Shown: positions 2,394 through 17,230 of the stretch, in pieces | Position numbering within the stretch: the first letter of the stretch is position 1 | Layout of the letters: every line of letters starts with the position of its first letter | Source of the DNA: Lotus japonicus | Taxonomy: Eukaryota; Streptophyta; Magnoliopsida; Fabales; Fabaceae | Reading direction: 5' to 3' | Length of the DNA stretch: 64,000 nt | Assembly (NCBI RefSeq): GCF_012489685.1 | Contig: NC_080044.1 | Coordinates: forward strand, 63,164,732 to 63,228,731 | Translations under genes and position numbers: made by a program | The notes under the pieces: model-generated | Databases searched by the model: none | Told to the model about the DNA's origin: nothing | What the model saw: the letters and a program-made list of their open reading frames with translations, nothing else

Positions 2394-2456
2394 GGGTCCC
2401 GCTACCATGGATCCCATCTTTTCGGGCTCTAATTTTGGAGCCCTGTTTTTTACCTA
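2394..2456. repeat. Left terminal inverted repeat of the large MULE
   Basis: This pairs imperfectly with 17160-17221 in reverse complement over roughly 60 bp. The best conserved blocks are catgga, ttcgggctc and ggagccctg. It is the likely transposase binding region. Confidence 0.8.
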
Positions 2457-2886
2457 CCATCACCCTTCCGGTTAAAAAAAAATAAAATTAAAAGTAAATG
2501 TTTTTAGTTAAAGTTTTAATTATTCCATTAATTGCTAATCATGATTCCGCACTAATTACCAGTATATATTCTCAGCTGGAATTAATTTCACATTTCAAGA
2601 AGAAGGACATTCATCTTTACCCTTAGCTCCTTACCTCTGGTTGTACCCCCACCAGCCTCCTCCGGCAGATCCAACCCACGAACCCCGTAACCATAGCAGC
2701 GAAAACAAAGGTATCCTTCGAAATCACGATTTTTCGTTTGTCGTGTTTATAGATCTGAAAACCCCCAATTCGCGTTTTTATGTTGAGATGCTCTTAGTTC
2801 AATTCGAATACACATAACTGATGTTTGTGATTTACTGTTTGTAGATCGCTCCGGCAGCACTCCGGCGATTATTCAACTCTTCAAAG

Positions 2887-5380
2887 ATGGCAACTGGGGA
2901 AGGAGAAAGAAAGATTGATAATGCAGAAGATTTTTTGCAGGTTTGGTAATTATTGTTTTCAAACCTTATTGACGATGCTATCCTTGTTCCTTATTGCGAA
3001 TGGTTTCGTTATTTTTGTTCAGGTGAACGAGGAGTCCGATAGTGATGATGAGAATGAGACTTCTGGTAGTGAGGAAATTGAAGACTTCTGTGATGGTGAA
3101 GATGCTGTGCAATCCATTGGAGAAACTTGTACAATTCCCATAGATGGTGTTGAAGATATGGGTAACATCAATTTCGTCACTTTAACATTTGAAGACATGA
3201 AGAAATACAGGTTTTTAAATCGCAATGTTGCCTGCGATTTTTACAATATGTATGCTCGCTTTAATGGATTTTCTGCCCGTCGGAGCGTTGTCAAGAAAAA
3301 CTTTAAGGGAGAAATTGTGCAGCAGAATTTTGTCTGTCATAAACAAGGTCACAGAGAAGATAGATTTGGGGAAGATGGAGTTCGCAAGCGTGAACCTAGG
3401 AGGGACATTAGGTGTGGATGTTTAGCACACTGCAAGGTCCATATTGATGAATCTGAATATGGTCAACGTTGGGTTGTTAAACATCTCGATGATGGCCATA
3501 GTCACTTGGTTGTCCCTGATAAGCATGTAGGTTTGCTAGCCGGTCATAGGAAGATGTGCGACATGGATGTTTCCCAGATGAACAACATGATTGGAGTTGG
3601 TATTTCACCTCCCCAAGTTTATGCATCATTTGCTGGTGAAGCGGGTGGGTATCTGAATGTAAATTTTAATCAGCGAAACATGTACAATGTATTGGATAAG
3701 GAGAGGAGAAACCAGTTGCCTGATGCAAGAGGTGCATTTGGCTATCTGCGTACTTTGCGAAGCACAGATCCAGACATGTACTGGAGCCATAAGAAGTCTG
3801 AGGAAGGAAAGTTGCTGAACTTGTTTTGGTGCGATGGACACAGTCGTAGAGACTATGGTGTTTTTGGTGATGTGTTAGCATTTGATGCTACGTATAGAAA
3901 AAACAAATATAGTTGCCCACTTGTGGTATTGTCTGGAGTCAACCATCATAACAGGACCATTGTGTTTGGCACAGCAATTGTATCTGATGAGAAAGAAGAA
4001 ACCTATGTATGGCTGCTGGAAAAATTTGTGGATGCAATGAAAGGCAAAGCTCCTGTATCTGTCATTACTGATGGATGCAAGTCCATGACGAATGCGATTA
4101 GAAGAGTATTCCCCGATGCCCACCATAGGTTGTGTGCGTGGCATTTATTGGAGAACGCATGAAGGAATGTGAAGAAGCCCAAATTCGTAGAAATGTTTAA
4201 AAGATGCATGTTGGGTGACTATGAGGTGGCTGGGTTTGAAGATAGGTGGGAAAAGATGGTGATAGAATTTGAAGTTCAAGATGAACCATGGGTGAAGGAG
4301 ACGTATGAGAAGAAGGAAATGTGGGCTTCTGCATACATGCGCGGTCAGTTTTTTGGTGGTTTTAGGACCACCTCGCGAGTTGAAGGCTTGCATGCTCAGC
4401 TCGGTAGATATGTGAATTATAAAAATAATTTGTGTAATTTCTTGAAGAACTTTCACAGGTGCATGACCTACTTTAGGTTCAAGGAGGTTGAAGATGACTT
4501 TAATTCAACACATGGGGAACAAGTGTTGTTGACATCTCTAAAAGCACTGGAGAGGTCCGCATCAAAGATCTACACGCGTAACATATTTCTTCGTTTTAGG
4601 GCTATTCTTCAAAGGGCTTCAACCTGGAGGGTTTTTGGGTTCAAGAGAACAGCAATGTGTGTTATCTACTTTGTGAAGCATTACCCCTCAACTGGAAGGA
4701 ATTGGCAAGTTACTTATTATGAACCTACTAGTGAGTTAAAGTGCAGCTGTGAGAGAATGGAGTCAGTAGGCCTTCCTTGTGATCACATTGTTTCTGTGAT
4801 GGTGCACATAGATATGGTTGAGATTCCTAAATCCCTTGTTCTTGGTAGGTGGACTATTAATGCTAAGGAATCTATTGAGGGCTTTGGAGAAACTGAAATG
4901 AATGAATGGGATCAACTAACAGTCTGTCGATATTCTGCATTGCTTGCAAGTTGTAGAAACCTGTGCAAACTTGCTTGTCGCACAAGTGCACAATTTCTAG
5001 AGACCAAATCACTTGTATTTGAGCACTGTAAAAGACTGAGCAGTAATTCACAGGTTGACGTGACAGCTGGAGATGGTGCTGCTGACCATGGTGCAACAGT
5101 TGATGAGGGACAGGGTGAGGAAGGTGAAGAGAGGCACATTAGGAATCCTGATGTTGTCAGATCTAAGGGATGTGGGGCCATTATCTCTCAACGGTCAATG
5201 AAAGGTAAGCGTACTCTTCGCTGTGGTATCTGTGGCAAGCCAGGACACAACCGCACAACATGCACACGTAGAGATGGCCAAACGTCTACTCAACTAGGAA
5301 CTCAACAAGGAACTCAAGAGGGATCTATTGGTGCTGGTCTCACCCAGAGACTATTTGAAGAAGAAAATGAAAATGTTTGA
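2887..5380 (+). pseudogene. MURA-type MULE transposase with FAR1 domain, one in-frame stop
   Basis: Predicted exons are 2887-2940 and 3023-5380, with an 82-bp phase-0 intron. A 5'-UTR intron at 2711-2844 is likely, and a 3'-UTR intron at 5397-5482 is possible. The product would be about 803 residues. It has an acidic N-terminus, a FAR1-type zinc-binding DNA-binding domain (about 80-195), and a MULE DDE catalytic core with Asp306 (DATY), Asp368 (TDGC) and Glu472 (SRVEG). A SWIM zinc finger follows (CSC...CDH from 592), then a CCHC zinc knuckle (CGICGKPGHNRTTC from 752). The domain order matches FAR1/FHY3-related MuDR transposases, which cut and join the element ends in the nucleus. The frame is broken only by TGA at 4160-4162 (codon 398), just after the conserved WHL motif, and the same frame continues for 405 codons. 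This copy is probably inactive unless the stop is read through. Confidence 0.9.
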
Positions 5381-6123
5381 GACAGATGTTGAGGAGGTAA
5401 CTATCCTCTCTTTTATGATTTCATGTGCTTATGTTGTTCAAATGAATGGTTTCATTGTGCTTAATGTGCGTATAAATTTCAGGTTGTGGATCCTTTTCTG
5501 GTGTGGTTTACGGAGGCTGACGTAGTTTAGTTCTATGGAACCCTAGTATGCGTATAATTAGATTGTGGTGTATTAGGTACAAAACAATTTGTGTTACTGT
5601 TGGATTTGTATTGAGTAAATGTTGAATTGTGTGTATTAAGTTTAATTTGATGTTGGATTCATATTGTGTTATTGTTTTGACTTAATATGTAGTTTATTTG
5701 CATGTTTTGACTTAATATGCAGTTCATATTGGGGTAGGAAAGGGTTTATGAGTGCTGCCTAAAGGTGCACTAATAAAATTAAAAGTGTAGAATGAACGAA
5801 AAACAGAATTTGCCACAAACAACCATATATTTTTCCATAAGTGTGTCAAAAGAAACACCTAAAGATCCAATTACATTTTTTTTTCTGGGCCAGCCCAAAA
5901 TAAAAAGTTAACGGGCCCAGGCCAATAAGCAGCTTCGTAAGCATTACGAGCCAAAAGTGTTAAGCAGGTTCAGAAGCACCAAGATCCACAACATTGGACC
6001 ATTAACCAGGTTCATACACATTACAAACCAAAAGTACGAGGGGAACATACACAGTACCAAAAAACTCGTCTAGTTCTCAAAAAATCTTAAGCTACTATGT
6101 GCATGACCTACTACCACCCAACA
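5381..6123. other. Convergent 3' region between transposase and ULP-like gene
   Basis: This is non-coding, AT-rich sequence between the tail ends of two convergent MULE genes. It probably contains both 3' UTRs, including a possible 3'-UTR intron of the transposase at 5397-5482 (gtaact...ttcag). A GC-richer patch near 5887-5925 (gggccagccc, gggcccaggcc) is the only notable feature. Confidence 0.5.
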
Positions 6124-8925
6124 TCAACTCAGCTTTGTCAGAGTATCCCAGAAGGCCTCACTGCTTGTCTGTAGCTTCCTCCTCTCCTCATTGTACCATC
6201 CAGTCAGCAAAGAAAGAGTCAACCTCATCCTCAAAGGGCTTGGCATCATCTGAAAGTAAAATATGGTAAGCTTCTTTTTGAGTTTAGCTATTGTATTCAA
6301 CAAAAAAGCAGTGAGAGTGAGAGTGTGCTTACACTGACAATAAGATTTGGATTGAATGCATCCTCCATCTCCATCCAATGCATTGTCCAAATGCCAGAGT
6401 GTTTGCTTCAATACATGAAGATATTGTTACGTTAAACAGTCAATGGATTACCAACTATCCAGTAACAAAATATTATTGGCAACTACGGACTACAATGATG
6501 TGGCCAACCTGTTTCCCCAGTTCGGTGTGCCCGTAGCCTCTTTGATTTTCCAGGACGGGAACTTCGCAGCAAGCTTTGTCAACAATGGTGGGTACACCCC
6601 CATTGTCACAATGTCCGATACAGCGGTGGTCTGATTAAAGCACAAATGTGAAGACAACTTCTAATACATTTTCCAGATTTAATTCACAATTATACAAAGG
6701 TTAATATGTTGTACCAAAGTAGTGATCATGTCAGACCGTTGTAGAACATCCATCCGATTCAAATATGAGTCTAGATGGAAAACCTTTTGATGAACAAGGG
6801 AGATGACCATTAAGAACCAATGGCCATATTCATTTCTTATGGGAAGGTAAACCTGTGTCACAAAGAAGAAATTGTAGTCAACACGTGGGAATTCCAAAAA
6901 CAATTTGACATTGACATTGATATTGAATTAAAGTTGACAAGATTTGCTGAGGGATTACATATTTCAGTCTTTCAAAAGGTTTCATCCAGACTTCAGCATA
7001 TGTCTCTGTTAGTTGTTTAATTGAATGTCCCTTGAAAACATCATCATGATCATTGCAAAAAGCAGCAATTCAATGAAATTTTCCATTTTGACCAATATTG
7101 TACTACTATATTATAAACACTATAATTGTTCACGTAACACACCACGAAAGCTGGTGGAAGTGACCACACCGTTGGAGTTATTGCATCATGTTGCACGCAT
7201 GTGCTCTTCATGCTCATTAAGGTTACCATCTGGAATTAATGGAGAAAAGTGTCATGCATACAGTTATGATTGTAATACATTCAGATATTAGTGATTGTAC
7301 TTCTAGTAATGTCTACATTACCTCTAGTCTGATGTCTATCTCTGGGCACATGCAGTGAAAATCTAGCCTGGTCAATGACATGTCTCCCAAACGCATCAAC
7401 ACTTCCCTGTATCCAAATTTCATCCAATTATGTTTTTATGTGACAATTAAGATAATGTTCACGTCGTTAATGTTTAGTAAAAAGATGCTCACCCTACCTC
7501 CAGAGCTGGATGAAACACATAGCAAGCAAGCTTCACTTCAGTCATCCCCAGTAGCATTTCCTCTGTTGGGGGAAAATAGCATAGAATCCCCTATGTCAAA
7601 ACAAACATAAACATGTCATTTTCATCATAAACTGTTGCATCAAAGGAAAATGCAAGAAAAAGGAACTAAAACAACCTGAGGCAATGTGTGACCCTTAGGT
7701 TCTTTCATCTCTTTGAGGATAGCTTCAACTGGCTTCAGAGTAGTATCAATCTCCTTTCCTTTCTTTTTAGGTGTTTCAGCAACTGAAGAAGGTGGTTTTT
7801 CTTTACCCCTTTTACCATTTTTTGGAGTACTTGCAGCAGACAATTTGCCCTTTCCCTTTTTGTCAGGCTTTGGGGGATCTGATGAAGGTAAAATTTCAGT
7901 GCTGTCGCTAACAAGGTCTTCATCTTCATCGGCTTTGGAATCTTTGCCCTTGCGTTTGGTTGGTGTTGGTGAATGAAAAAGTTTTTTCCCTGTTAGTCCA
8001 TCATCTACGTTGAATGCACGAATCAGACTCTGTCGATGCACAACAAAGATATTACACCATCAGCAAGCATACTACAGTACACATACGATTCATAAAAAAA
8101 TAATTTGGTAATGAACCACCATCTGAGTAGGGCTAGGCTGTTCTGGTGTCTTGCGTGCTTTGTTGACTGATTGGTTAACGAATCTTTGACCCCATGTGAT
8201 AGAAAAGGCACCACTCTTGTGTTGTTCATGGCTAAGCATAACCTCGTCATTGTCATCAGCCACGTATTCATCATCTGAAATATATGTCAGCAAGTCAAGG
8301 TCTTCATCCCCAATAAGGTCCACCTCGCGTTTCTTGTTTACAGATTTAGCAGCAATCGTGTTTGGTGTTACGTTCTCACTTGCAGCCACTGGGGTGCAGC
8401 TTTGACTTCCATCAGTTTGTGTTGTTTGTTTTGGAGTGTGCTTCAGATGTGTTACATCACTTGCAGATACTGATTTCCCCATCATGTGAATGGAGTGTTG
8501 TATGCTGGTCATTGTCAAGCTCAACTCGTCAACACGAGTGTTCATCACCTGTTATTAGTAAAAAATACAATTTATTAGAGCTTTTAAACCACATCAGACT
8601 TGATTTATGAATAGCAACTGGAAAAGATAAACTTACCTTGTTCTGCACAAGTGATTTTGTCACCGTTTCAGTAAGGGCTTTAATGGCCATTTTAATTTGT
8701 GAGATATCGTCCTTAACATCCATTCCGTTTCCGCGCCCTTTGTCCTCTATGTGAGCCTTCTCCAACCTGCAGTAAAGAGGACAGAAGTATTAGTTTGAGC
8801 TGAGGGTTTAGGGTTTAAGGGAAAAATAACAAATAGGGTTTATGGTTTAAGTGAACTTACATGTTGTTGTTTGCTTCAACACCGGCAGAGTTCATTGATG
8901 CAATCTCTTCCATGGGATCTTCCAT
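6124..8925 (-). CDS. Ulp1/C48 peptidase-like MULE passenger protein, 12 exons
   Basis: Exons (+ coordinates, transcribed right to left) are 8861-8925, 8637-8766, 8120-8548, 7676-8029, 7493-7590, 7322-7406, 7143-7229, 6959-7030, 6715-6852, 6509-6660, 6333-6405 and 6124-6249. They sum to 1809 nt, an uninterrupted frame of 602 residues with phases matching at all 11 junctions. Residues 1-326 are Lys/Ser/Pro-rich with several basic nuclear-localisation-like patches and an acidic stretch. The C-terminal half resembles the Ulp1 (C48) SUMO-protease fold: VYLPIRNEYGHWFLMV gives catalytic His451 and VFHLDS gives Asp468. The nucleophile segment reads NSKHSGIWTMHWM, so the Cys of the usual C-G-V/I-W/F motif is Ser540 and no Cys lies nearby. 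The protein may be a non-catalytic SUMO binder or a dead enzyme. Intron 9 is only 54 bp. Kaonashi-type MULEs carry related genes. Confidence 0.85.
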
Positions 8926-9577
8926 GGGATCTTCAGATCAACTGTTGACACTTTGGTTGTTGGATTGTTTAAACAGAGGTGCAGTGCATAGAAGTGTCAA
9001 GTGTGTAGAATGTGAATGAAGCACTTCAGACCTTTGTTGAACATAAAGTAGGTGAGCTTACGTGTCACGATTTCATTCGGCCAACCTATTACATTGGGAT
9101 GCTCTCGCTCCTGAAACCTAATTTTCTTCAAAAGTAAACGCGCTACGTGTCCATATGGTGATTGGTTGTTTCTCTTATTTTGGTCCACATTGGGAAGAAG
9201 CTTGTCCGAACAAAATTTTTCCCTCTAAAACCAGTGTGGTTACGTGTCACCGCATAATTGGTTTGAACTACTTATGTCGTACGACGATGTTTGTTTTTAA
9301 TTTTGTCTTAAACTAAACAGCACGCAACTCAACGCTTACTAACTAGTTCAACTATTTAGTTCAATCTAAACAAAGTTGGTTCAGCACATAAATTCTTTAT
9401 CCAGTGGATATGTAGTTGGATCTCCATGTGAGGGGGGCACAAATATTAAGAGGCACAAATTGAAATGCAAAGGAAATTATAGGATTAGGCTCAAACATTG
9501 ATGGGGTATATATACCCAAATTAGCATAATTAACAACAAGGTCCTAACAACAATTAGGTGGATCAGGCAACAACACT
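8926..9577. other. Spacer between ULP-like and hybrid-binding-domain genes
   Basis: This is upstream sequence of the ULP-like gene and downstream sequence of the next minus-strand gene. I see no ORF with recognisable content. A perfect 14-bp palindrome gggtatatataccc sits at 9504-9517, just past the stop codon of the neighbouring gene. Confidence 0.5.
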
Positions 9578-10021
9578 TTAAAATATGAGCTGCCATATCT
9601 TCAATAGGATTACACCCACGAATATTCCAAAAAGAATGGCACCACCAGTTGTTAGTTTGCCTTCAACAATTTCTTCTTTGACAGTTGGGGCTTCATGTGG
9701 ATGAGAACTCTTGATTGGTTCTTGAATGTCCGTAAGTTGTGGCATACACTCATCTCCAGGAAGTGATTTAGTTTGCACATCTCCAGCAATTGACATGTCC
9801 ACATGAGCCATTTCATATTTCGTTGACATTGCTTTGGCCCAGTACAGGTTCCATGCTGACAAAGCTTCTTCCTCACTGTTATATGCCTTGTACAAATTGC
9901 CTGAGAATCCAGAAACCTGATTGTTACACTCACCCCATGAAGAGTATATCCCTGGCTCCCTACCCTTGAAAACCACATATCTTTTGGATCTTGGACGCTG
10001 GTGGATCATTGGAGCCTCCAT
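9578..10021 (-). CDS. RNase H1-type hybrid-binding domain protein with C-terminal membrane anchor
   Basis: A single-exon frame of 147 residues starts at ATG 10021-10019. A start at TTG 10030 would add only three residues and is less likely. Residues 15-57 match the RNase H1 N-terminal hybrid-binding domain (Pfam Cauli_VI): YVVFKGREPGIYSSWGEC, then QVSGFSGNLYKAYNSEEEA. This fold binds RNA-DNA hybrids and dsRNA in cellular RNase H1 and also occurs in caulimovirus viroplasmin proteins. The catalytic RNase H domain is absent. A polar linker follows, then a hydrophobic C-terminus (about 124-147, GAILFGIFVGVILLKIWQLI) that looks like a single tail-anchor helix. A TATA box lies about 90 bp upstream on the same strand. 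Function is unknown; the domain order suggests a membrane-tethered nucleic-acid-binding protein. Confidence 0.8.
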   Translation of the reverse strand: MEAPMIHQRPRSKRYVVFKGREPGIYSSWGECNNQVSGFSGNLYKAYNSEEEALSAWNLYWAKAMSTKYEMAHVDMSIAGDVQTKSLPGDECMPQLTDIQEPIKSSHPHEAPTVKEEIVEGKLTTGGAILFGIFVGVILLKIWQLIF

Positions 10022-10105
10022 ACCACACAACAGAAGCTAATTTGCAAGGGAAGAACTTGTTTGTCTAGGTGAATGTGATTAAATAAATGGATAAAAGTAA
10101 AGGGC

Positions 10106-10116
10106 CATATATATAG
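10106..10116 (-). promoter_or_regulatory. TATA box for the hybrid-binding-domain gene
   Basis: On the minus strand the sequence is ctatatatatg, about 90 bp upstream of the ATG at 10021. The spacing fits a short 5' UTR. Confidence 0.55.
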
Positions 10117-10199
10117 GCAATGTGCCTTTACTAGCCGTTGTGATTGTTTAAATGTGACACAACCTAAAGGATAAACAAAGTTTGCTTTAATTGCAGTTT

Positions 10200-11160
10200 T
10201 CATAGAAGTAACATCACATCTCTGTACTTGGTCCCCATTTCCTCATTACTACATTCCACTACACACGTATAATGACCCTATTGTCCTTGTTCATCAAATG
10301 AGGGAGATTCCAAAATTTAATTGATTTAAATTTTTGAAAACAAATTTTGTAAGAAACAAAATTTACTAAACATAAGGTTGCTTTTTATGTGCTTCTTAAT
10401 ATGACTTATATGGGTCCAATAATTAAGTTTTAGTTCATAGGGTTACCCTAGTTCATATACACCATAAGTTAATGAGGGGTCATTAATGTAATTCAGTAAC
10501 CACAATCCAATTGATAAAACCCTCCATCCACATGTGAGGTCTCCACTTATTGCTTTTTGTCTCATATAAACCTTGACCTGATTGGCTGATTTCAATTTCT
10601 TTCACATTTTAGTGGTGCTGCAATGACTGACTTTGTACCGTGATTGATTGTCATAGGGTTCCGTAAAGATCAATCAAGCAACTCTGTCGCTGGCGCTGCT
10701 ACGTCTGACGCAGCTGAACCTATCGCAGGCCTACGTCACCTACGATTTCAAGCTGGCTCCATCTACTTTGATTTGAATTGATTTGACATTTTCAGCGAGA
10801 GAGAGGAAAGGCGGTTTCCATTACCGATAACTGTATTATCTGAATAAATTAGGACGTTCTAAATTAATTAGGGTCATGATCTTAATCAACAAGTCTTATT
10901 GAACACTATACGTCATAATCTTCGTCAAATAGATCTAATCACACAGTAATTAACCCAATTAACCTAATCAACTACAATGTGAAACACCCTTAATTATAAT
11001 AATCTTACATAACAAGTGCTACTCAAACCTAAATTATCCTAATCATAAAATCCTAATCAACCGTAATCACACTTAACTTATCCTATTCATGAATTTCTAA
11101 TAATTGATATTTTGAAAAAAAATAATTTTTTATTTTCAAAATATCAATTATCAGACATTT
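10200..11160. other. Non-coding MULE interior between anchor-protein gene and tandem array
   Basis: I see no coding sequence here. A GC-richer patch at about 10680-10760 (gctggcgctgctacgtctga) stands out from the AT-rich background but gives no convincing protein. From about 10860 onward the sequence is built of degenerate pieces such as cctaatca and accctaat, which look like eroded copies of the array that follows. Confidence 0.45.
11101..11150. repeat. Perfect 18-bp inverted repeat (hairpin) beside the tandem array
   Basis: The arm taattgatattttgaaaa (11101-11118) is exactly reverse-complementary to 11133-11150, with a 14-nt AT-only loop. It sits about 10 bp before the first array unit. 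Confidence 0.8.
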
Positions 11161-11935
11161 AGTCAGCAACCCATAATCACTCTCATAAGGTCATCATCCT
11201 GGTCAACAACTCCTAAGAACACCTCTAGTGCTACATATCCTAGTCAGCAAACCCTAATCACTCTCATAAGGTCATCATTCTGGTCAACAACTCCTAAGAA
11301 CACCTCTAGTGCTACATATCCTAGTCATCAACCCATAATCACTCTCATAAGGTCATCATCCTGGTCAACAACTCCTAAGAACACCTCTAGTGCTACATAT
11401 CCTAGTCAGCAAACCCTAATCACTCTCATAAGGTCATCATCCTGGTCAACAACTCCTAAGAACACCTCTAGTGCTACAAACCCTAGTCAGCAACCCATAA
11501 TCACACATGCACTATCCTAGTCAGCAAACCCTAATCACTCTCATAAGGTCATCATCCTGGTCAACAACTCCTAAGAACACCTCTAGTTCTACAAACCCTA
11601 GTCAGCAACCCATAATCACACATGCACTATCCTAGTCAGCAAACCCTAATCACTCTCATAAGGTCATCATCCTGGTCAACAACTCCTAATCACACCTCTA
11701 GTGCTACAAACCCTAGTCAGCAACCCATAATCACACATGCACTATCCTAGTCAGCAAACCCTAATCACTCTCATAAGGTCATCATCCTGGTCAACAACTC
11801 CTAAGAACACCTCTAGTTCTACAAACCCTAGTCAGCAAACCCTAAATAAGGTCATAATCCTGGTCAACAACTCCTAATCACACCTCTAGTGCTACAAACC
11901 CTAGTCAGCAACCCATAATTATCATAAGGTCATCA
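11161..11935. repeat. Tandem array of 81-bp and 34-bp units with telo-box-like motifs
   Basis: Units start with agtcagcaa at 11161, 11242, 11323, 11404, 11485, 11519, 11600, 11634, 11715, 11749, 11830 and 11903. The spacings are 81, 81, 81, 81, 34, 81, 34, 81, 34, 81 and 73 bp. The long unit contains ctcataaggtcatcatcctg and cctaagaacacctctag. The short unit ends cacacatgcactatcct. Many units carry aaaccctaatc, which includes a telo-box core. The 81+34 alternation is a higher-order pattern that arose after simple 81-bp repetition. Copies are nearly identical, so the array is young or homogenised. It lies entirely inside the large MULE. Confidence 0.9.
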
Positions 11936-12070
11936 TAATCCTATTAACACAACCTTTGCTAATGGGCCTTAATTATCATAATCCTATTAACACACAACCT
12001 TTGCTAATGGGCCTTAATTATCATAAACCTATTAGAACACACAACCTTTGTTAATTGGCCTTAATCTTTC
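11936..12070. repeat. Second short tandem repeat, about 46-bp unit, three copies
   Basis: Copies share cctattaacac, aacctttgctaatgggcct and taattatcata. The third copy is more diverged (ttgttaattggcc). It directly follows the 81/34-bp array. Confidence 0.7.
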
Positions 12071-12570
12071 ATAAACACAAAACTTTTACCTAAAATCCTA
12101 ACTAATTTGTAACTTCATTACGTAATTGTATAATTAGCTAATAAACAATCATTATTTAACTAAATAAAAATATGTGTGATTTTTTAAATAAAAACCCACA
12201 TATATTATTAACATTAAATTTTGTTTCGGAGGTCATTATTAGGAGATTTTTCCGAAAAAAAAATTACTCCATCTCATCCTCCAAAGTTAGAATATTGGTT
12301 ATCTACGCTCAGTTGTACTTCGAATTAGTGCAACCGTGCATTCTCCACCATTGATTAAGATTCCAAAGGGTTCCATTTAAATAGATTAAATCAACGTCAA
12401 AGCCTGGCCGCGTCCAAACCGTAGGATTAAATGAAAGGTTGGATCCAAAGGGCAAAACGATTCAAATCACTCCGGGAAAATGAACCATTGCGGAACACGA
12501 AGTAGTGGGGTAATCAATGAAACACGTTTTATTAAACCTTCACAACCGCACTCACCACCTTTCCACAACT

Positions 12571-12580
12571 ATATAAATAC
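12571..12580 (+). promoter_or_regulatory. TATA box of the first B3 gene
   Basis: atataaatac lies about 105 bp upstream of the ATG at 12682, in a suitable position for a plant core promoter. A pyrimidine-rich leader (cttctcctttctcgtcttca) follows. Confidence 0.55.
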
Positions 12581-12681
12581 TTCCATGAGGCAAATAAGGA
12601 AAACTCACAAACCCTAAACACTACACTAGATCTTCTCCTTTCTCGTCTTCAACTTTCCCAGAACACTCCACTACCAGATTC

Positions 12682-13163
12682 ATGGAACCTTTCGTCTGGG
12701 GATTCAACTGGAGAGCTTTCACGATCCAGTGGGATCGGGAAGATGTAAGTTTGCAACACTACACTACACTTGTTGCTTTCTGTTTGATTTTTTCAAGTTT
12801 GTTTACTAATGTCTTTGTTTCTGTTTTTGTTTTCTGCAGCAACGTTCTTTCTTCATCCCAAAAAACTTCTGGAATGACTGGGCAGACGAGATCGACGATG
12901 AAGTCACCATCATCGACCCTGTGGACAACTCCTTCTCCTGCCGTCTTCGCCGCTGGGGCAAACATGCTTACTTCTGGAAAGACTTCAGTAAAGAGGTGAT
13001 CAGCCTCTACCATCCAAACGGCCCGGTCCGATTGCACTTCCAGATGCTAGCCTCTGGTATTTTCATGATGAGGATGACGGTGGATGGTGAAGGCGAAATC
13101 TCCTACCCCTGGCACAACAATGGCCACCAGGGGCGTTTTGTTCAGGGGGGCTTATGGGAGTAG
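12682..13163 (+). CDS. B3-domain-like protein 1 (MULE passenger)
   Basis: Exons are 12682-12744 (21 codons) and 12840-13163, with a 95-bp phase-0 intron, giving 128 residues. After the exon junction come RSFFIPKNFWNDW, then a Gly/Trp/aromatic stretch (RRWGKHAYFWKDFSKEV) and MLASGIFMMRMTV. This order of strands resembles a B3 DNA-binding domain, best compared with the REM-type B3s. It is the most diverged of the three in this element. Codon use is strongly C-ending (TTC, ATC, GAC, AAC), unlike the neighbouring MULE genes, which may mark a different source or selection. The exon-1 length of exactly 21 codons is shared with the next gene. The frame is intact and probably acts in the nucleus; the B3 assignment is by eye. 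Confidence 0.7.
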
Positions 13164-14180
13164 GCTTCCATGCCCCCCCCCCCCTTTTTTTTTAATATGA
13201 AAATGTAATCCCCCATCCCCTTCCCCCATCCCCTTCCTCTTCCCCTTCCCCTTCCCTCTTCCTCTTTGTCATGAATGAAATTATGTTATTTTCCAATTTT
13301 TGTTTTTTTTGTGTTTTTTTATCTCCACTTTTCCTTTCTTCAAACTGTTTTTTTATTACTATTTTCGAGCACAAATAAATCTTAATAAACAATGGGAAAA
13401 ACCATAATAAAAAAAATGAAGTTAACAAAAACCAACCAAAGGATTGGGCTATACTAAAACTTTTTTGTTTAAAAAACCATTGTGGAATTTTAATTTAAAG
13501 TTAAAACCCACTAACTAAAACATATGGTAATTTAAATTGAAATTTACGTATAAATTTTGTACACATTTTTTGCTAAATCTTTAACTTAAGATTTAAGTAA
13601 TAATAATAAATTTAAGTAAGTAATAATAATAAATTGCATGACACTAGTTCTTTGTGATAAGACGCGTGGAAAGGTGAAAAGCCTTCTTCCTGCAATTAAT
13701 TTTTTAAACTGCGAACCGTCATTATCATATCTACTCAACCATCATTTTTTTCTCTTACCATTCACTCAATCTCTCCCTCATAAAGTTCGAAGTTATCCCA
13801 TCCCACAAGAAGTAAAAATCAAAAACCAAACATTGTCTACCTCTTATCGATCCAATCAACCCAGAAAACATAAGGTAAATTTTCGTTAGATCTTGCTTAC
13901 CTATTACTGAAAAAATGGTAACTATATGGTGTTAAAACGATTTTTATCATGCACAATGAATATATGCTCTTCTTTGTTTACCATATCTGACAAAAAAAAT
14001 TGTTGGGACCCATGAATGTTTTTTTTTAACTTATCCTCAAAAGCCCCAGATTCACATTGTTGAAAATTTGTTTTTATTTGAGTAACTATCGTTTTCTACA
14101 TACACTGTCACCTTCTTCACATGTTATGGGTTACCCTATTGAGAACCTTTTTTGTGTCTTTGTCTTCATGCAGTGACAAA
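13164..14180 (+). other. Low-complexity 3' region and 5' leader of the second B3 gene
   Basis: Just after the first B3 stop is an oligo-C/oligo-T run (13171-13193), followed by a ccccttccc-type pyrimidine stretch to about 13265. From about 13740 a pyrimidine-rich leader precedes the next gene. A 5'-UTR intron at 13875-14173 (aag/gtaaat ... tgcag/tgacaa) is likely, ending 7 nt before the next ATG. Confidence 0.5.
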
Positions 14181-15273
14181 ATGGACTCTTTTGGGACTGA
14201 ATCGAACATGCTTACTTTCGCTGTCAGAATCCGTTCTGACCGTGTAAGTTTTACTCTCTAACTTACATGACATTAGTTGTGTTTTTTTTTTCTTTAGCAA
14301 TTACTTGCAATTTTAGCCATTTAGTAACCTATTTTGTTGATGATTTTGACAAAATATTCTTAATAGATTACTAGCAATAACTGACACTTAACTTATCTGT
14401 TTTATGATTAGAATTCTGTTTATTTGAACAAGACTTTTTATGAACTACATAAGGAAGAGATCCTCAACAGAGAAGTTCAATTAAAAGACCCAAAAGGTAA
14501 TGTCTCTAGGTTGATGGTAAGAGAGATGCAGCAGAATTTAGTGACTATAGGTTATTTAGAGGAGACATGCAAACTAGTCGATCTTTATGGTCTTAGGGGT
14601 CTCAAATGGTTAAGAATGGAGTACAGAAGAGCGTGTATGTTTGACATAACAATACTGAATGAGAAGTTGGAAGAAATTCAGTACCCAGACCCTGTCCCCC
14701 AACCAGATGCTGATGTTGCTGTTCCAGAACAAGTGCTTCCTGTTGCAAATCCCATAATCGAACAACCTGTGGAGAACCCATAGCCACAACCACAACAAAT
14801 TCTATTGTGGGATAGAGATGTGACCACAGAATTTGCTAGGGGTAAAAACCCTTTGGTGAGTGTATCTAAATTTTATTGTTCCTAGCATTTCATTTGTTTG
14901 CTGAAATAGTTATTGCCTTATTGGGGCTCTAGTTATTGCTCGTTTATTTTAGGACTCTTGAATTTATTCTAAATCAGTTTTTTTCTATTTCTCTTTTTTT
15001 AAGCATATACCTGCTCAAATTGTCCGTGACTATCTCCTACCTGGAAAGAGCACCATTGATTTGCTTTGCAACGGAATGCCTGATGTACGTCGTGCTAAGC
15101 TTAAGGTTTATAAGCGGGGTGGGGGAAAGGAAGTATATGTTGGACCAGGATGGTACACCTTGTGCAAAGCCCTGAACATGAAGGACGGTGATACAATCTC
15201 CTTCTGGAATGCTGGAAACCCACAAGAATTGCACGTTCGACTCGTTCGTTTCATGGATGGCAATGGGAACTAA
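14181..15273 (+). pseudogene. Tandem two-B3-domain protein 2, one in-frame stop
   Basis: Exons are 14181-14243 (21 codons), 14412-14855 and 15004-15273, with all junctions phase 0; the frame spans 258 codons. The first B3-like domain covers about residues 12-120 (RNSVYLNKTFYELHKEEI, then GLKWLRMEYRRACMFDITIL). A Pro/Gln-rich linker follows. The second B3 domain occupies about 167-258 (HIPAQIVRDYLL, VGPGWYTLCKALNMKDGD, TISFWN) and is the clearest B3 match in the element. A TAG at 14781-14783 (codon 145) interrupts the linker, in pro-TAG-pro-gln context. CAG is the obvious ancestral codon, and the frame continues cleanly afterwards. If translated as is, only the first domain would be made. Paired B3 domains are typical of REM-family DNA-binding proteins. 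Confidence 0.8.
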
Positions 15274-15602
15274 AATGTACTCTGCTTTTGGAACCCTCAT
15301 GTGAGGTTTTAACTCTGTTAAATGTGTGCTTTAACTATGTCTGTAATTACTTACTATTTGAGTGTATTACCAAAATACTCTATGCATAATTTCTATTTAC
15401 CTTGTGCTTTAACTTTGTTCAACTCTTTCATTGGTCCTTTTTCACAAACTTGTTATGATGTGTGTGCAATGAGCTGAGTAATTAGAAAAATAAGGATAAA
15501 CACACCGACGAAAATAACATTTCTTTAAAACACTTCATTTGTGTACAATAAACACTTGAACAAGATCAACCAAAACAAGTAAAGAACATAGCACACAGTG
15601 TT
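15274..15602. other. Convergent 3' region between B3 genes 2 and 3
   Basis: This AT-rich non-coding sequence separates two convergent B3 genes and presumably holds both 3' UTRs. No other feature was seen. Confidence 0.5.
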
Positions 15603-16125
15603 TTACTGGCTAGGGCCTCCCTCCCTCCCTCCCCTCTTTCTTTTCCTTGTTATGAGTATGGTTGCACTAGTGCAGTTACCATTATCACCATCCAACATGA
15701 AAGTCACACGATCACCACAGCATAGTTTCTTGTCGTGGCAGAATTCATACCAGCCACTCGCAAAACAGCTTTCCCTGGGTCTATTGTCCCACCACTTCAA
15801 TTCAAAAGTTCTTATGGGTTCCCTAAAAAGGTCGCCATCGGTGTCAACCCAGATCTGAAGTGTTTTTGGCTTGTGGCTCAGGAAGCGTTTCACAATACTT
15901 GCCGGGATACCCTGAAATCAAAATCATACAAGGCACTATATGTCAAAATAAACAAGGCAAACAAATATACATGAATGTAAAGGGTTAGGATAAAAAATAA
16001 TAAGCTCATACCAGTGTTTATCCCCCTGATGCCTGATGCTTAGTTAGCACAACATCCCATTCCGGCAGGAACTCTTCATACTCCTCCTTCGATGAATCGC
16101 TAGAGATCTCAATAACATCAGCCAT
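15603..16125 (-). pseudogene. B3-domain protein 3, one in-frame stop
   Basis: Exons (+ coordinates) are 16012-16125 and 15603-15911, joined in phase 0, giving 141 codons. After an acidic, Ser-rich N-terminus (MADVIEISSDSSKEEYEEF) comes the B3 start WDVVLTKHQASGG. The domain then continues in exon 2: GIPASIVKRFLSHKP, ELKWWDNRPRESCFASGWYE and CCGDRVTFMLDG. The tail is basic (TRKRKRGGREGG) and could act as a nuclear localisation signal. TAA at 16018-16020, two codons before the splice donor, interrupts the frame at codon 36. CAA to TAA is the simplest origin, and the frame after the stop is the correct B3 frame. A TATA-like tatatat lies about 55 bp upstream. Confidence 0.78.
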
Positions 16126-16173
16126 TACACTGTGAAAGAAAATGCTTGTAAGTTCAACTAATGGTGTAAGTTC

Positions 16174-16190
16174 CATATATATGCATGCAA
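16174..16190 (-). promoter_or_regulatory. TATA-like sequence and RY motif upstream of B3 gene 3
   Basis: The + strand reads catatatatgcatgcaa. On the minus strand this is a tatatat core about 55 bp upstream of the ATG, overlapping a tgcatgca palindrome. CATGCA is the RY element bound by some B3 proteins, so self-regulation is conceivable. The motif is short and could be chance. Confidence 0.4.
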
Positions 16191-16261
16191 GGCTACGTTT
16201 CGTAAAATGTGCTGAGTCAAGGGAACACATTTTCTTTTTCACATCTGCTACTGGAAGCATA

Positions 16262-17159
16262 TTAACTGGCAGTTTTAAGATGGTCCACTAGGGTCCCACT
16301 AGCCTCTTGACCATGACCATGGAAAACAATAATACAAACACTAGTTGGGTTGGGGTCTGGTCATAAACTCATATGTGACGGTTACTGGGGTTAGTGGGGA
16401 CATGTGTCAACATCTGAATCTACTTTTCCATGCAATGGAATGGAGATGATAGTGGATACAAAATTTGTCTGCTTATGGCACATGGGTCCCTATGACACAT
16501 AGGTGCTACGAAAAGAAATTACTTTTAACTTTTAACAGACCTAGTAAAAAAAACGGGTTCGGGCCTCTGCAAGCCCAAATAAATTTAATATCTACAGCCG
16601 AATAAATTGAGGGGGTCCTCAAATTAACAAAAATACGGGTCCGGGACCTCTTCCAGCCCAACCTACCTTAACACATCAAAAATCCTACCAAAAAAACTTC
16701 TAATATTCGTTTGATTGTCATCTCAGAAGATCTGAGCCTGTACTCGACTGAGATAACACATAGAACATATAGAACATCATGGATACAACATATAGAACAT
16801 CATTGCCGGGAGATTCAAAGTTTGTACAGTACCGCAATTCACGAGGTGAGCATGGAGTAGGTAGATCCACGATGCCCGTTGCTGGAAATTCCTCCATCAC
16901 AGACAACTTCACTGTCGAGGTCAACCTTCAGCGGCGGCCGTTGCGGTTAAGCTTCAACGGCGGCCAACGAGATGGGGCAGATCCACGATGCTCGATCCCG
17001 GACCCAATTACAGTTCAAATTGGATACCCATTACCTCAACAAAACCTAATATTCTATTATAGTAGGGTCAGATTATTTATTTCAAAACACTTTTTAATTA
17101 AAACATAATGACAATTAGGAAAAAAAATAAAAAATAAAATAAAAAAAAGCAACCTGTGA
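16262..17159. other. Right subterminal region of the large MULE
   Basis: No gene is supported. Two diverged direct copies of a segment with cgggttcgggcctctgcaag / cgggtccgggacctcttcca occur at about 16552 and 16635. A short GC-rich stretch at 16800-17030 gives ORFs on both strands without recognisable content. An A/T-rich tract at 17095-17150 precedes the terminal repeat, mirroring a similar tract behind the left terminus. Confidence 0.45.
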
Positions 17160-17221
17160 TCACCGGTCAAACACAGGGCTCCAATGGAGCCCGAAAATCG
17201 GGCTCCATGTTAGCCGAACCC
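17160..17221. repeat. Right terminal inverted repeat of the large MULE
   Basis: This is the imperfect reverse complement of 2394-2456, ending agccgaaccc at 17221. Confidence 0.8.
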
Positions 17222-17230
17222 TATAGTTAG
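17222..17230. repeat. 9-bp target-site duplication of the large MULE, right copy
   Basis: tatagttag, identical to 2385-2393. Confidence 0.9.

Follow-up and report, generated by a model that had tools for sequence, protein, structure and literature searches.

The locus considered here raises the question of whether a transposable element that encloses five genes besides its transposase captured them once, or belongs to a lineage in which they have long resided. The stretch of Lotus japonicus DNA that we analysed (64,000 nucleotides, hereafter the window) lies on contig C4 of the 553.7-Mb genome, and the element, a Mutator-like element (MULE), occupies positions 2394-17221 (14,828 bp). In plant DNA transposons, accessory genes or fragments of genes usually number one or two. 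This element encodes, in order, a FAR1-type transposase (FAR1, + strand), a Ulp1-like protein (ULP, -), a protein with a hybrid-binding domain (HBD, -) and three B3 or B3-like proteins (B3a, +; B3b, +; B3c, -). It is part of a genuine MULE family in which the set of six genes is retained. We further propose, with a probability of roughly 0.7, that this is a recently mobile multi-copy family, moved by its FAR1-type DDE transposase, which would act on the terminal inverted repeats and leave 9-bp duplications of the target, and that the five accessory genes are long-standing in the lineage and not one-off captures. The structure of the element, its recurrence, the gene order kept in a diverged copy, the lower divergence of exons and the dN/dS values below 1 of four genes carry this proposal. 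If purifying selection has largely maintained five extra genes in an element lineage, with DNA-binding proteins of the transcription-factor type among their products, this would offer a rare view of a transposon building a regulatory kit.

Structure and classification of the element

An earlier note on this DNA had described a single MULE with matching termini and a perfect 9-bp duplication, and its coordinates prove exact. The ends and target site duplications (TSDs) can be located to the base, with a perfect 9-bp TSD, TATAGTTAG, at 2385-2393 on the left and again at 17222-17230 on the right. The left terminal inverted repeat (TIR; 2394-2454, + strand) is imperfect and about 60 bp long, and pairs imperfectly with the right one (17165-17221, - strand). 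When the two 150-bp ends are aligned, the TIR score is 54 over about 60 bp, against a maximum of 35 in 2000 shuffles. The element thus combines the features that define MULEs: a MULE DDE transposase domain, a TSD of the 8-11 bp class and TIRs.

The transposase gene (exons 2887-2940 and 3023-5380, + strand) matches the Pfam families MULE (PF10551, E 9e-30), FAR1 (PF03101, E 6e-14) and SWIM. Together with matches to Peptidase_C48 and Cauli_VI further along the element, these bear out the FAR1-type transposase, Ulp1-like and hybrid-binding genes named in the earlier note. The FAR1 DNA-binding domain, which we take to be a mark of Jittery-like MULEs, is present. Transposase relatives number 435 in the protein database, and among the 120 listed, those with an organism in their name are from legumes. 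All six gene models are predictions whose exons were joined by hand from the window DNA. A search of Rfam gave no match, and neither did a search of a plasmid collection, which is uninformative as a control.

Recurrence of the six-gene set

A genome search with the left end finds at least 31 places, ten of which are 96-100% identical. We compared sequence (about 20 kb or more each) from the window copy, the nine other near-identical places and one place at 82%. The earlier note had reasoned that accessory genes confined to this copy would be one-off captures, and had asked whether the set recurs between homologous ends. Each of the ten near-identical copies, which are distributed over contigs C1-C5, contains recognisable versions of all six genes in a single order, and the set recurs partly in older relatives. 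Some genes are partial: B3a is incomplete in c2_8p and is known from exon 2 only in c3_47m, where about 1.4 kb is uncovered. Perfect 9-bp TSDs that differ from copy to copy flank seven of the ten (the window copy, c5_44p, c5_48m, c3_78p, c2_8p, c5_52m and c4_20m). No TSD was found at c1_73m and c3_47m, of which both ends were located, and the right end of c2_24m was not found. Counted over the ten elements with both ends located, namely nine near-identical copies and the deletion derivative c1_18m described below, a perfect 9-bp TSD is present in eight. Because ten near-identical copies recur, seven of them with different perfect TSDs, chance co-occurrence of the six genes is excluded. An eleventh copy is indicated by a 95% match to HBD at C1:8837091, with B3b matches adjoining it and a match to the right end close by.

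Between eight of the copies (c3_47m excluded) and the window copy, non-coding sequence diverges by 0.9-3.1% and exons by 0.7-1.9%. The copies c1_73m, c4_20m and c3_47m contain long stretches absent from the window copy, visible as alignment breaks. The number of near-identical copies in which a frame is open, with incomplete reads scored as not open, is nine for HBD, six for B3a, five for ULP (counted, in copies that lack the first Met, from the second), four each for the transposase and B3b, and three for B3c.

Older relatives and selection

The most informative relative is c5_42m, whose left end is 79% identical and which matches window positions 2394-10549 at 83% and 13655-16363 at 76%; its right end was not found within 20 kb. 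The order of genes is kept in this diverged copy: FAR1, ULP, HBD, a B3a remnant, B3b and B3c. A second relative, c1_18m, is a deletion derivative with a left end at 81% and its own perfect 9-bp TSD, TACATTCTC. It has lost its middle, so that most of ULP, HBD and the 3' part of FAR1 are gone, and it retains the 5' part of FAR1 and B3a-c. At 37.36 Mb on contig C2 (c2_37m) lies a degraded pair of B3b and B3c at 73.5% identity, and a B3b match at C4:43203664 (81%) lies 97 kb from a left end at 79%. A one-off capture into a single copy is excluded by the ten near-identical copies together with c5_42m, c1_18m and c2_37m, which contain part or nearly all of the set.

The earlier note had also suggested long-term selection, and signs of purifying selection are indeed found. 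In the comparison of the window copy with c5_42m, dN/dS is 0.31 for FAR1, 0.49 for ULP, 0.62 for HBD, 0.51 for B3b and 0.50 for B3c; four of these five values are significant, HBD being the exception (one-sided Fisher p of 1e-9, 2e-5, 0.14, 0.004 and 0.01, respectively). Exons differ from those of c5_42m by 8.9% and non-coding sequence by 16.0% (p 2e-29), and eleven of the fifteen exon gaps in the five genes are multiples of three. Similarly, against c1_18m the divergence is 8.9% in exons and 12.9% in non-coding sequence (p 3e-7), and dN/dS for B3a is 0.28. We dropped the FAR1 values against c1_18m (0.78) and c2_48m (0.63), a further related copy, because these forced alignments, at 70% identity, cross breaks. 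A value of 0.39 for B3a against c5_42m was likewise dropped as a forced alignment over breaks. The picture suggested by these comparisons is one in which the accessory genes were constrained while the lineage was active and decay after insertion, like the transposase itself.

The accessory proteins

The Ulp1-like gene (6124-8925, - strand) is open in the window copy and is predicted to encode 592 aa in 12 exons (8925-8861, 8766-8637, 8548-8120, 8029-7676, 7590-7493, 7406-7322, 7229-7143, 7030-6959, 6852-6715, 6630-6509, 6405-6333 and 6249-6124). Its sole Pfam match, with E up to 1 allowed, is Peptidase_C48 (E 1.2e-8). The catalytic Cys of a Ulp1 protease lies in a DCG motif. In all twelve sequences compared (the ten near-identical copies, c5_42m and c2_48m) this presumptive Cys is absent, and HSG, YSG, HFG or HSS stands in its place, with Ser in the window copy; the motif was placed by hand and lies outside the Pfam-aligned stretch, which ends before it. 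The candidate His is kept in four and the candidate Asp in three of the four sequences in which the preceding exon is in frame (the window copy, c2_8p, c5_42m and c2_48m). From the missing Cys we infer a binding rather than a cleaving role, and regard the protein as a putative binding module.

The HBD gene (9578-10021, - strand) is a single exon of 147 aa that matches Pfam Cauli_VI (RNase H1 N-terminal, E 1e-16) and the RNase H1 structures 1qhk and 3bsu. Its C-terminus is a hydrophobic segment that, judged by eye, resembles a tail anchor. The protein database holds one match, 99% identical over the full length, too few to judge other species.

The three B3 proteins of the earlier note are recovered in part. 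B3b (exons 14181-14243, 14412-14855 and 15004-15273, + strand) consists of two B3-type halves, the C-terminal of which matches Pfam B3 (E 5e-9; 36.4 bits), as does the single-domain B3c (exons 16125-16012 and 15911-15603, - strand; E 3e-10; 40.3 bits); the cut-off is 30.1 bits, and the scores were taken on the proteins of copies c3_78p (B3b) and c2_8p (B3c). B3c resembles the C-terminal half of B3b. B3a (exons 12682-12744 and 12840-13163, + strand) is open in the window copy, with 128 aa, and has no Pfam match. We call it B3-like, on weak evidence, because it appears related to the N-terminal half of B3b (blastp 1e-4; hhalign probability 56%, E 1e-4), a half that Pfam likewise fails to recognise. 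As a proven B3 domain B3a was rejected: the AlphaFold model of its second exon has a pLDDT of 57 and gave no Foldseek match at E < 0.001, and the best hit in a sequence search of the PDB has E 0.31.

The protein database contains one match to B3b, 97% identical over 56% of the query, too few for statements on other species. In a genome search in which 147 of 204 candidates were scored, the best-scoring match to B3b outside element-related places has 31% identity (E 3e-9), and none exceeds 37%, a value reached over a short stretch. Relatives of the B3b N-terminal half at about 30% identity lie at C4:64980637, C3:93511628, C6:10478873 and other places, and the three of them that were tested have no Pfam B3 match. 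B3b shares its two B3-type halves with the host genes that we take to be REM-like dual-B3 genes, and the genome contains loci about 30% identical to it.

A tandem array and a possible role for the accessory genes

Between HBD and B3a lies a non-coding tandem array (11160-12074, + strand) composed of 81/115-bp units from 11160 to about 11918 and of 45-bp units at 11932-12074. Its core, CCT[AG]GTCA[AG]C (CCTAGTCAAC), occurs on one strand throughout. Tandem arrays are present upstream of the B3 genes in all ten elements examined in this respect (eight near-identical copies, c5_42m and c1_18m); in c1_18m, from which ULP and HBD are deleted, the array falls between the FAR1 remnant and B3a. Unit lengths are 81/113-118 bp and 45 bp in the near-identical group, 72 bp in c5_42m and 73 bp in c1_18m. 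Each of the ten elements has 11-52 copies of the core motif, none of them outside the array and all on one strand; a single match lies in the remaining 49 kb of the window. The motif was picked after the arrays had been viewed, so how often it occurs within them tests nothing, and only its lack elsewhere and the fact that subfamilies share it are informative.

In VANDAL elements, the target regions of VANC proteins are described, in the available text of PMC10398659, as non-coding tandem repeats with short motifs, prone to expansion and contraction and to rapid divergence. The array resembles these targets, a likeness that we take as a structural parallel only. By analogy, it is possible, if doubtful, that the accessory proteins counteract host silencing and so maintain expression of the element. 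The B3 proteins could bind the element's own array, through its core, as a sequence-specific address, comparable to VANC on VANDAL arrays. The Ulp1-like protein, without the expected Cys, might serve as a binding module without cleavage, and the HBD protein might bind element-derived RNA:DNA hybrids or double-stranded RNA. We can only tentatively suggest that a FAR1-type MULE lineage evolved a B3-based, self-addressed anti-silencing system, directed at a rapidly evolving internal array, in which a non-cleaving Ulp1 fold and a membrane-tailed hybrid binder assist. If true, such a system would be a convergent counterpart of VANDAL/VANC, and the internal motif arrays make the idea of self-regulation directly testable in a model legume.

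The accessory genes might instead serve transposition, the B3 proteins binding the ends or the array and aiding assembly of the transposition complex. The second open reading frame (ORF) of maize MuDR, mudrB, is apparently required for integration (PMC6446971, in the part available), and the presence of an array in every element examined would suit such a function. In the window element, however, the array is separated from the left end by about 8.8 kb and from the right end by 5.1 kb, a strange position for sites of end synapsis, and we regard this role as unlikely.

Passive cargo and composite elements

A different view of the whole gene set is that host genes were captured once by transduplication and have been copied along without function, much as in a Pack-MULE but inside a transposase-bearing element. 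Several observations weigh against the reading that we propose, and some of them suit this view. The near-intact frames of the earlier note hold for three of the six genes in the window copy (ULP, HBD and B3a), whereas a single in-frame stop interrupts each of the transposase, B3b and B3c there (codons 398, 145 and 36, respectively), and in none of the ten near-identical copies are all six frames open, so the copies may be interdependent, or the family may now be decaying. Accessory genes are broken in many copies. Private changes among the near-identical copies are close to neutral (70 synonymous, 206 nonsynonymous and 22 stops; omega 0.87), and the lower omega of 0.52 for shared changes (21 synonymous, 41 nonsynonymous, no stop) comes from only 62 changes and has no significance value; codons in badly aligned stretches were masked in both counts. 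Against c1_18m, dN/dS is 0.81 for B3b and 0.93 for B3c, near 1, and for ULP against c2_48m it is 0.66, over 265 of 593 codons. HBD constraint is individually non-significant, as noted above. In the related copy c2_48m, FAR1 and the catalytic portion of ULP are present, and 20 kb of sequence gave no match to HBD or the B3 genes. In c5_42m, B3a is mostly unalignable, its second exon being 51% identical with six stops and its first exon not found. Finally, the arrays may share their motif simply because the repeats descend from a common ancestor.

Passive copying is nevertheless hard to reconcile with omega values of about 0.5 for ULP, B3b and B3c against c5_42m, each significant, or with exons that have diverged about half as much as non-coding sequence. 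HBD is open in nearly every near-identical copy, and the gene models are whole, with introns. We therefore consider passive cargo improbable and retain the reading of a mobile family with long-standing accessory genes. An artefact in which a host gene cluster lies between unrelated MULE ends, or separate elements are nested, might be suspected from the large length, the mixed families and the long extra stretches in some copies, and is refuted because TSDs recur at the same two ends, with seven of ten copies at unrelated sites having their own perfect TSDs and one gene order.

Relation to known elements

Neither extra ORFs in MULEs (PMC6446971, PMC9168764) nor ULP genes in Jittery-like MULEs (PMC2528002) are new, as the available portions of these papers attest. 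ULP-carrying Jittery-like and TIR MULEs have been reported from melon and grapevine (PMC2528002, citing van Leeuwen 2007). As in the element studied here, their Ulp1-like gene lies downstream of the transposase, in either orientation; the text available from PMC2528002 does not mention HBD or B3 genes, whereas the window element has five extra genes and a motif array. The earlier note had linked the element to Kaonashi. The accessible text of PMC2528002 defines Kaonashi elements as non-TIR MULEs, and membership is rejected because TIRs are present here, together with a FAR1-domain transposase.

The VANDAL/Hiun and Kaonashi elements of Arabidopsis share with our element the possession of extra genes, some with a Ulp1 domain, and of non-coding tandem repeats with short motifs (PMC10398659, PMC13317346, both in part). 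VANDALs have degenerated TIRs according to the same texts, whereas imperfect TIRs are present here and B3 proteins are the candidates for DNA binding; assignment to either group by non-TIR or degenerated ends does not agree with these termini. The likeness to VANDALs is one of description. Barley Abermu is, as far as the consulted text of PMC9168764 goes, likewise a large MULE (>8 kb) with a transposase and two extra ORFs, one in the opposite orientation, but these ORFs are of unknown function, its transposase is closer to MuDR, and the set of Ulp1, HBD and B3 genes is absent. Pack-MULEs resemble our element in having host-type genes between MULE TIRs. They are usually 2-3 kb long and non-autonomous (PMC9168764, same portion), whereas here a transposase is present and whole gene models are shared with a diverged copy; an assignment to Pack-MULEs, which have gene fragments and no transposase, was thus rejected. 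A sugarcane paper in which B3 and Mutator terms occur together concerns, in its available part, a syntenic host gene. In the open-licence literature, of which partial texts were seen, no MULE that contains HBD or B3 genes came to our notice; absence from print is unproved.

Related ends and genes elsewhere in the genome

Left ends at 74-79% identity also occur at 43.1 Mb on contig C4 and at 119.4 Mb on contig C1. Nine further places match only the first 100-140 bp or so of the left-end query, at 75-82% (C2:51649706, C1:61746683, C5:8854606, C2:61958180, C1:97872153, C5:8458158, C1:87108905, C4:74871731 and C5:13271180), and are probably ends of other or non-autonomous families.

HBD coding stretches match 130 scored places genome-wide. 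Many of these form recurrent sets of identical length, a hint that such genes are present in other mobile elements as well. A second HBD fragment, 53% identical, lies inside the copy c2_8p (C2:8970891-8971004), in an insert between B3c and the right end. Of four loci that give similar matches, the one at C6:30063200-30069200 has a 330-aa frame with an HBD; after it, on the same strand, comes a charged 220-aa frame loosely reminiscent of the N-terminal part of the Ulp-like protein.

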